From Pelosinus fermentans JBW45 (lineage in GTDB: Bacteria; Bacillota; Negativicutes; DSM-13327), in the NCBI RefSeq assembly GCF_000271665.2, contig NZ_CP010978.1:528501-592500 (forward strand): 64,000 nucleotides of DNA. Reading direction: 5' to 3'. Shown piece after piece: positions 60,853 to 63,642 of the stretch. Numbering within the stretch: the stretch's first letter is position 1; every line of letters starts with the position of its first letter. The notes under the pieces were generated by a model that worked only from the letters and a program-made list of their open reading frames with translations, made no database searches and was not told where the DNA came from. The translations under genes were made by a program, and so were the position numbers.

Positions 60853-61221
60853 TTATGGGATATCTTTAGGATCAAGGATAGCGCCAGGTCCTTCTTCTCC
60901 CGTGCGAATTCGCACTGCGTTTTCAATAGGATAGATAAAAATCTTACCGTCGCCGATTTTTCCCGTGGAGCAGACTTTCTTTACAGCTGCCACTACTTTT
61001 TCTACGGGAACTTTGCATACAACAATTTCTATCTTGATTCCAGCTAAAAGATTAATGTTATATTCTTTACCTCGGTATATTTCAGTATGACCTTTTTGTA
61101 GCCCGCAGCCAAATACTTGACTTACGGTCATACCTGTAACTCCGATTGCATTTAATGCTTCTTTCAATTCCTCCAGCTTGCCAGGACGGGTGATAATATC
61201 GATTTTGGTCATGATCGACAT
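60853..61221 (-). CDS. glnK: PII nitrogen regulatory protein, second of a pair
   Basis: This 122-residue PII protein binds ATP/ADP and 2-oxoglutarate and controls AmtB and nitrogen enzymes. The T-loop (QKGHTEIYRGKEYNINLLAG) keeps the tyrosine at the position of Tyr51 (Tyr54 here, because three extra residues precede the usual MTKID start). The B-loop TGKIGDGKIFIYP and the C-loop RIRTGEEG are intact. AAAGGCGG lies 8 nt before the start. It is 385 nt after the first PII gene and beyond a terminator, so it may be expressed separately. Confidence 0.94.
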   Translation of the reverse strand: MSIMTKIDIITRPGKLEELKEALNAIGVTGMTVSQVFGCGLQKGHTEIYRGKEYNINLLAGIKIEIVVCKVPVEKVVAAVKKVCSTGKIGDGKIFIYPIENAVRIRTGEEGPGAILDPKDIP

Positions 61222-61534: not shown

Positions 61535-61563
61535 AGAACCTGACAGTAGAAACTGTCAGGTTC
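61535..61563 (-). terminator. Terminator of the amtB-glnK transcript
   Basis: On the minus strand GAACCTGACAG and CTGTCAGGTTC form an 11-bp stem with a 6-nt loop, followed by TTTCTT. Confidence 0.88.
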
Positions 61564-61606: not shown

Positions 61607-61978
61607 TTAGGAGTTATCTTCTTGACGATCCATAATGGCAATGTCGCCTTCTTCGCCAGTGCGAATTCTAACGGCATTTTCAATGGGATAAACAAATATC
61701 TTACCATCGCCGATTTTACCGGTGCGACATACTTTTTTCACCGTTTCAATTACGGTTGTGACAGGAACTTCGCATACTACGATTTCCACTTTTATGCCAG
61801 CTAAAAGATTAATATTATATTCTTTACCACGGTATACTTCAGTATGACCTTTTTGCAAGCCGCAGCCAAATACCTGGCTTACTGTCATGCCCATTACACC
61901 AATGTCAGCCAAGGCTTCTTTTAACTCTTCCAATTTACCGGGGCGAGTCACTACATCAATTTTGGTTATTTTTCGCAT
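61607..61978 (-). CDS. glnK: PII nitrogen regulatory protein, directly after amtB
   Basis: This 123-residue PII protein is very similar to the one at 60853 (same T-loop core GCGLQKGHTEVYRGKEYN, same B- and C-loops). It lies 22 nt after amtB on the same strand, the classical amtB-glnK arrangement, so it probably gates the ammonium channel by binding with its T-loop. AGAAAGGTGG precedes the ATG. The two PII proteins differ mostly in the last 10 residues and scattered positions. Confidence 0.95.
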   Translation of the reverse strand: MRKITKIDVVTRPGKLEELKEALADIGVMGMTVSQVFGCGLQKGHTEVYRGKEYNINLLAGIKVEIVVCEVPVTTVIETVKKVCRTGKIGDGKIFVYPIENAVRIRTGEEGDIAIMDRQEDNS

Positions 61979-62000: not shown

Positions 62001-63431
62001 TTAGTGAGATTTAGAATGTGAGGCTTGTAAAATTGAACTATTGATTGGTTCTGATTGACTGGCAACATGAGAAAAGCTTAGAGGAGAACCGGCAGTTATA
62101 TCTTGATAACTATAACCCCGTTCACCGTGTTCTGCAATATCTAGGCCTATGTCTTCATGGTTTTCATCAGAACGTACTTGCATGAATACACTAATTACTT
62201 TTAATATCACAAAGGTCATAACAGCTGCAAAAACCCAGGTAACTGCAACGCCGAATAATTGAGTGAAAACAAGATCAGGATTGCCAAAAAATAATCCATC
62301 AGCGCCAGCTGGATTTACAGCTGTAGAGGCGAATAGACCTGTGGCGATTGCACCCCAAGTACCGCCAATTCCGTGAACACCAAAAGCATCAAGAGCATCA
62401 TCATAACCAAGTTTTGCTTTTAAAATACTAACAGCAAAGAAACAGATTGCACCGCCAGCTAAACCGATCACAATAGCAGGTATTACACTAACAAAACCTG
62501 CAGCAGGAGTGATTGCCACAAGACCGGCCACACAACCGCTCGCTGCGCCTAGTATAGTGGGTTTGCCATGGTAGAGCCATTCGGTTAAAACCCAAGCGAG
62601 TGTAGCAGCAGCTGCAGCTACGTGAGTAACAACGAAAGCGCTGACTGCTAAGCCATTGGCTGACAATGCACTTCCGGCATTAAAGCCGAACCAGCCAAAC
62701 CAGAGAAGAGAAGCACCGATAAGGGTCATAGGCAAATGGTGAGGCAGCATAATTTCCGTGCCGTATCCCTTGCGTTTGCCAATAAATAAAGCAACTACTA
62801 AACCAGAAATACCTGAGGAAATATGAACAACCGTTCCGCCGGCGAAATCCAAGATGCCCATTTCCCGCATCCAGCCACCGACACCCCATACCCAGTGTGC
62901 AAGAGGGTCATACACAACGGTGGCCCAAATGACAATAAATACAGCGAAAGCGGAGAACCTCATACGTTCAGCAAAGGAACCTGTAATTAAAGCAGCTGTA
63001 ATAATGGCGAACATACATTGAAAAACCATAAAAAGCAGATGGGGTATCGTTGCAGCATAGTCGGCATTTGGTAATTGACCTACATCGTTTAAGCCGAACC
63101 AGGCTAAGCTGCCGATGATATGGTTGATATCAGGTCCAAAAGAGAGAGAGTAGCCCCATAGTACCCATTGTACAGTAATAAGTCCGATGATAAAAAAACT
63201 TTGCATAAGAGTGCTCAGTACGTTTTTAGTTCTTACCATACCACCATAAAATAAGGCTAAACCAGGTGTCATAAGCATTACCAGTGCAGCACTTAACAGA
63301 ATAAAAGTGGTATCACCTGTGTCGATGGTAGCAACCTCGGTAGCTGCTTCTACGCCTTCTGCGAAGGCTGTTCCGAGACTAAGCAGCATCATAAGGACAG
63401 AAGTGCTCATAATAGTCAATAGCTTTTTCAT
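62001..63431 (-). CDS. amtB: Ammonium transporter
   Basis: This 476-residue Amt/MEP/Rh channel has a cleavable signal-like N-terminus (MKKLLTIMSTSVLMML), then eleven membrane helices. The pore histidines are in GGTVVHISSGISGL and FGVHGIGGTWGA. The cytoplasmic C-terminus (about 400-476) is long. ATG 63431 follows GGGAGG with 7 nt spacing; the earlier ATG 63446 overlaps that site. Its transcription appears controlled by a leader with two hexaloop hairpins and terminators. GlnK follows directly. Confidence 0.95.
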   Translation of the reverse strand: MKKLLTIMSTSVLMMLLSLGTAFAEGVEAATEVATIDTGDTTFILLSAALVMLMTPGLALFYGGMVRTKNVLSTLMQSFFIIGLITVQWVLWGYSLSFGPDINHIIGSLAWFGLNDVGQLPNADYAATIPHLLFMVFQCMFAIITAALITGSFAERMRFSAFAVFIVIWATVVYDPLAHWVWGVGGWMREMGILDFAGGTVVHISSGISGLVVALFIGKRKGYGTEIMLPHHLPMTLIGASLLWFGWFGFNAGSALSANGLAVSAFVVTHVAAAAATLAWVLTEWLYHGKPTILGAASGCVAGLVAITPAAGFVSVIPAIVIGLAGGAICFFAVSILKAKLGYDDALDAFGVHGIGGTWGAIATGLFASTAVNPAGADGLFFGNPDLVFTQLFGVAVTWVFAAVMTFVILKVISVFMQVRSDENHEDIGLDIAEHGERGYSYQDITAGSPLSFSHVASQSEPINSSILQASHSKSH

Positions 63432-63487: not shown

Positions 63488-63588
63488 CAAATAAAAAAGC
63501 GTCTAAAGGTGGTGAGACCTTTAGGACGCCATTGTCCCTAATAGACAGAAAAAACCTCCGCGAGTACTTTGCGAAGGCGTCATTGCCT
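63488..63588 (-). ncRNA. amtB leader with two hexaloop hairpins each overlapping a terminator (ANTAR-type)
   Basis: On the minus strand hairpin 1 is AGGC-AATGAC-GCCT (63575-63588) and hairpin 2 is GGAC-AATGGC-GTCC (63524-63537). Both hexaloops have A at position 1 and G at position 4, the signature of RNAs bound by ANTAR antiterminators. The 3' arm of hairpin 1 is also the 5' arm of a terminator (GCCTTCGC with GCGGAGGT, then TTTTTT). The 3' arm of hairpin 2 is the 5' arm of a second (GCGTCCTAAAGG with CCTTTAGACGC, then TTTTTTATTT). Each hairpin excludes its terminator. No ANTAR protein gene is in this window. Confidence 0.82.
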
Positions 63589-63613
63589 ATTTCGTATAAA
63601 ATTTTATAAATGA

Positions 63614-63642
63614 ATTATATCAATGTTTTATAATCATGTCAA
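63614..63642 (-). promoter_or_regulatory. Consensus sigma-A promoter of the amtB operon
   Basis: On the minus strand TTGACA (63642-63637), a 17-bp spacer and TATAAT (63619-63614) match consensus exactly. A promoter this strong fits control at the RNA level by the leader that follows. Otherwise 63643-63802 shows nothing recognisable. Confidence 0.92.

Follow-up and report, generated by a model that had tools for sequence, protein, structure and literature searches.

The stretch of Pelosinus fermentans JBW45 DNA analysed here (64,000 nucleotides, hereafter the window) carries an ammonium transporter gene, amtB, on the minus strand (62001..63431; Ammonium_transp, PF00909, 8.5e-130), whose start was placed at the ATG at 63431 by its ribosome site. 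A P-II-like gene is located directly 3' of amtB (61607..61978, minus strand; a close relative of this gene matches P-II) and is probably on the same transcript, and a second P-II-like gene is found at 60853..61221 on the same strand. A strong terminator with a 12-pair stem (61536-61563, minus strand) is present between the two P-II-like genes. The amtB promoter, TTGACA-17-TATAAT (63614..63642, minus strand), matches 12 of 12 consensus positions and has a TG before the -10 box (extended -10), which bears out the consensus promoter described in an earlier note on this DNA. Transcription is predicted to start at about 63607. An AT-rich inverted repeat, TATAAAATTTTATA, lies at this predicted start (63595-63610, minus strand), with similar repeats in close relatives, and might represent an operator or a 5' element.

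Along the minus strand, the promoter is followed by two hairpin-terminator units (H1/T1 and H2/T2), the ribosome site and the amtB start codon. H1 (63575..63588) is a single hexaloop hairpin, AGGC-AAUGAC-GCCU, having A at loop position 1, G at position 4 (A1/G4) and a closing C-G pair, and is a candidate ANTAR docking site and antiterminator. It is followed by a predicted intrinsic terminator, T1 (63549..63578), which consists of CCUUCGC-AAAGUACUC-GCGGAGG (hairpin 63578-63555) and a U6 tract (63554-63549). The second single hexaloop hairpin, H2 (63523..63538; GGGAC-AAUGGC-GUCCU), shows the same A1, G4 and closing C-G pair, with A-U as the second pair, and precedes the predicted terminator T2 (63493..63530; GGCGUCC.UAAAGGU-CUCACC-ACCUUUAGACGCU plus U6; hairpin 63530-63498, U6 63498-63493). 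The two hexaloops named earlier, AATGAC and AATGGC, were thus found exact to the base, and the sharing of a 3' arm between each hexaloop and its own terminator also holds: the 5' arm of T1 is the 3' arm of H1, and that of T2 comprises the 3' arm of H2 together with the last loop bases, so that the hexaloop and terminator forms are mutually exclusive. The whole leader has a folding z of -5.4. When the alternative structures were folded alone, both terminators were more stable than the hexaloop hairpins (T1, -9.3 vs H1, -4.9 kcal/mol; T2, -15.7 vs H2, -6.6 kcal/mol); on these predicted energies, transcription would be expected to terminate unless something keeps the hexaloops folded. A scan of the 64-kb window at the same stringency detected a single further unit in addition to these two, and Rfam searches, run at the gathering threshold and with E relaxed to 5, returned no credible family.

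The promoter and both units are kept in the leaders of all ten genomes of the family, and the tandem layout recurs in orthologous amtB leaders throughout the Negativicutes. The class-wide sample comprised 110 amtB upstream regions from 94 Negativicutes genomes, which were scanned for hexaloops whose 3' arm overlaps a terminator. The naming of the class draws on two sampled genomes, G012 and G079, whose ANTAR genes share their coordinates with those of G153 and G156, labelled Megasphaera and Veillonellaceae. Loops with A1/G4 gave 114 units in 80 of the 110 leaders (34 leaders with at least two units), compared with 19 units for the 15 other letter pairs at loop positions 1 and 4 combined, a six-fold enrichment, and 0.25 units per set of shuffled leaders; on the basis of these controls, the combination of hexaloop and terminator is not due to chance. 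Ten of the 19 other units were GG, most of them variants with G at position 1 in equivalent positions of the leader. In one genus, the first amtB hexaloop of four leaders is GAUGAA, with G for A at position 1 at the equivalent place, and such a replacement may be a tolerated change. Covariation of the hexaloop stems in related leaders, set beforehand as a test of the attenuator reading, is present: in four of the five pairs, both bases are substituted (59 cells vs 19.6 in shuffled alignments). The alignment was drawn from units matching the A1/G4 pattern and the stem requirement, so that A1, G4 and the stem pairing are conserved within it partly by construction; the letter-pair control is an independent test of the A1/G4 preference. 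Two features that the scan did not require are also conserved, namely the closing C-G pair (53 of 56 related units) and A at loop position 2 (nearly invariant).

Similar units are not confined to amtB. Across the class, matches to a covariance model of the unit precede genes for glutamine synthetase, P-II, nifV, oligopeptide/peptide and amino-acid binding proteins, alanine symporters, xanthine permease, NCS1 permease, a 5-oxoprolinase subunit, M20 amidohydrolase, nitrilase-family amidohydrolase and diaminopropionate ammonia-lyase. As most of these functions are in nitrogen scavenging, the distribution supports a putative nitrogen control. In P. fermentans itself, besides those at amtB and the eut-like genes, short-stemmed elements of a similar kind occur before an M20 hydrolase gene, a nucleoside-gate protein gene and a gamma-glutamylcyclotransferase-like gene, an incomplete list drawn from the covariance model and selected stretches. 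Five weaker matches in this genome proved to be plain terminators without a hexaloop.

The recognition features of these leaders are those of known ANTAR targets. As in the antiterminators of the eut, nas and ami systems (EutV, NasR and AmiR), an A1/G4 hexaloop with a closing C-G pair has its 3' arm in common with an intrinsic terminator, an ANTAR regulator is encoded in the genome, and the target is nitrogen-related; SELEX with NasR likewise selected a terminal C:G pair and A1/G4 (PMC7496416). The ANTAR target was defined by Ramesh et al. (2012; PMC3369931) as a two-hairpin element, in agreement with the earlier statement that described targets pair two hexaloops ahead of one terminator. Nitrogen genes are indeed known targets, ammonium transporters being among the genes behind the matches of that study, and hence an ANTAR element before an ammonium transporter is not new. 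The ANTAR regulon of Desulfotomaculum acetoxidans, with 13 attenuators in six transcription units (PMC3369931), resembles the present one in that nitrogen genes including ammonium transporters are targeted and that a transcription unit can carry multiple attenuators, although its elements were matched with a dual-hairpin model and the amtB-type elements have no hexaloop pair. In the dual-hexaloop class, two hexaloops joined by a linker of 5-12 nt stand before one terminator, an arrangement that is absent from the amtB leader. Here, each terminator has one hexaloop lacking a partner at 25 nt or less, the complete unit occurs twice in series, and the first hexaloop lies at a fixed short distance from the promoter. 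Because the recognition features are present and the adjacent pair is lacking, the amtB leader is regarded as a variant that lies outside the dual class. Literature searches covering part of the journals found no report of single-hexaloop attenuators.

Evidence that the single unit, not the pair, is the basic element of the wider nitrogen regulon comes from several comparisons. An A1/G4 partner hexaloop was found at most 25 nt upstream of none of 115 units, and the same partner scan did detect closely spaced pairs near ANTAR genes in other lineages (three loci, one with a 9-nt linker). Of the 90 leaders whose promoter could be recognised, 79 have a first hexaloop that begins 13-30 nt past the -10 box (median 22.5), which leaves no room for a transcribed partner before it. 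With a relaxed scan, a unit was present in 101 of 110 amtB leaders, and in about 75 of these 101 a further AA.G hexaloop lies no more than 130 nt away (mostly at 45-120 nt, mode 48-52; among the listed spacings, two of 25 nt fall inside terminator loops), compared with an average of 3.1 when other loop triplets were used for the second hexaloop. A second hexaloop was found in only 8 of 39 leaders of other nitrogen genes, implying that the unit is single and that amtB is special in doubling it. Single units were also observed near ANTAR genes at five loci in Bacilli, and the single form is thus not confined to Negativicutes. In two genomes (G008 and G006), amtB is directly followed by a second copy with a single unit of its own, where the model matches both strands.

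The main rival explanation is that the leader is one stretched dual-hexaloop attenuator, in which H1 recruits an ANTAR dimer and passes it to H2, T2 is the sole regulated decision, and T1 acts only as a weak terminator, pause site or spacer hairpin. This would be consistent with the two hexaloops, spaced rather constantly at about 50 nt, that most amtB leaders have, with a T1 that is weaker than T2 and has a shorter U tract on average in the tandem leaders (4.5 vs 5.1), and with the 2022 EutV model, which assigns recruitment to the upstream hairpin and antitermination to the downstream one (PMC8934654). However, 73 of 78 H1 in the tandem leaders (and 72 of 78 H2) overlap a terminator hairpin that is followed by a U tract, so that each hexaloop does have its own terminator hairpin in nearly all of them, and only one hexaloop is present in 31 of the 39 other nitrogen leaders and in 26 of the 101 amtB leaders. 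In addition, the linker between H1 and H2 is 31-75 nt in most amtB leaders, far from the 5-12 nt of known dual-hexaloop RNAs, which cease to work with a 14-nt linker in vivo or once the linker is extended by 20 nt in vitro (PMC3369931, PMC8934654). We consider the stretched arrangement unlikely on balance. H1 and H2 are also systematically different, the second stem pair being G-C in 73 of 78 H1 and A-U in 73 of 78 H2; one possible reason is that differing arms would prevent cross-pairing between H1 and H2.

A search for ANTAR-domain regulators elsewhere in the P. fermentans genome identified two response regulators, both above the Pfam cut-off. One belongs to an EutW/EutV-like pair beside an amino-acid permease gene (G000:C1:5280249-5282342), and single hexaloop-terminator units, neither with an adjacent partner hexaloop, precede eutW and the neighbouring permease. 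In the other pair, a kinase with a GAF_PdtaS domain is encoded next to a REC-ANTAR regulator that is closest to Rv1626 (structure 1s8n, 1.7e-57), and these are hereafter referred to as PdtaS/PdtaR-like. The two features recall the PdtaS/PdtaR system, from which the present pair differs in its position between tsaD and groES/groEL, kept across the Negativicutes (11 of 13 genomes examined; L267 3636-6846 and further loci), and in accompanying a nitrogen regulon of terminator-overlapping elements, which it may well drive. When the PdtaR-like ANTAR domain was aligned to EutV, using the contact residues and numbering of PMC8934654, the G4 contacts R142, K149, E160 and Y164 were found to be kept, as were K143, M172 and R175; the changes are K147 to R, R168 to Q, N173 to S and R177 to S. 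The EutV triple mutant N173A/R175A/R177A did not bind.

ANTAR proteins were detected in 131 of 150 Negativicutes genomes. Matches to the covariance model at E<=1e-3 occur in 80 of the 131 ANTAR-containing genomes and in 3 of the 19 others (Fisher p = 3e-4, with ancestry ignored), and amtB itself in 111 of 131 vs 3 of 19. An ANTAR protein is encoded in nine of ten named genomes having the leader unit, and in one genus without the kinase or a convincing ANTAR (G144 and G128), amtB is kept and its leader has no hexaloop, so that both losses coincide. Two assemblies that are 87-88% complete (G027 and G102) have units, with no ANTAR or kinase found. In ANTAR-less G120, the model matches were checked at one place, where no hexaloop unit was seen. 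One unit in Geobacteraceae also occurs where no ANTAR was found and may be a chance match. A non-ANTAR RNA-binding protein or a small ligand might in principle read the hairpins, as the ANTAR protein differs from EutV at three RNA-contact positions and the two ANTAR-negative assemblies have units; this appears improbable, given that the loop and closing pair are the exact ANTAR consensus, the presence of units tracks ANTAR across genomes, and no Rfam family is matched. That two ordinary terminators merely carry chance hexaloops, as might be inferred from how common terminators are and how short the hexaloop stems, is contradicted by the letter control, the shuffles, the covariation and the class-wide recurrence, and has next to no credibility.

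The A1/G4 control, stem covariation, tandem recurrence and the two ANTAR proteins support the double ANTAR attenuator proposed in the earlier note, as far as genome sequences can indicate. We favour, with a probability of roughly 0.7, the reading that the amtB leader consists of tandem single-hexaloop ANTAR attenuators, both terminators being relieved by an ANTAR protein, most likely the PdtaR-like one. RNA polymerase would meet T1 and, if it passes, T2, and would stop by default. The active regulator would hold H1 and then H2 as hexaloop hairpins, T1 and T2 would be unable to form, and amtB and the P-II genes would be transcribed. Such antitermination by the PdtaS/PdtaR-type pair would probably occur when nitrogen is short. 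Each unit would act with one hexaloop, and two in series would multiply the fold control. A more specific proposal, to which we give about even odds, is that the PdtaR-type ANTAR of Negativicutes antiterminates with one hexaloop per terminator and that amtB is placed under two serial switches, whose second pairs differ class-wide (G-C in H1, A-U in H2), giving two ordered, non-equivalent decisions. Action through a single hexaloop would depart from the behaviour of EutV, which requires both hexaloops in vivo and whose antitermination in vitro was abolished by a linker longer by 20 nt (PMC3369931, PMC8934654). The binding motif has been cut to one hexaloop, with two still required for antitermination (Walshe et al. 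2022; PMC8934654), and the affinity of NasR for a lone hairpin is weak (about 12 uM; PMC7496416).

ANTAR antitermination has been thought to need two adjacent hexaloops, one that recruits and one that antiterminates (PMC8934654). The recognition features and the ammonium-transporter targets are known; what appears to be new is a tandem of putative single-hexaloop ANTAR attenuators. The amtB-type leaders represent a large natural set with one hexaloop per terminator and no space before the first, which makes the adjacent-pair rule directly testable. These findings also suggest that a PdtaS/PdtaR-like pair may govern nitrogen acquisition across the whole class, and that repeating an attenuator may be a compact way, found in nature, to multiply regulatory range.
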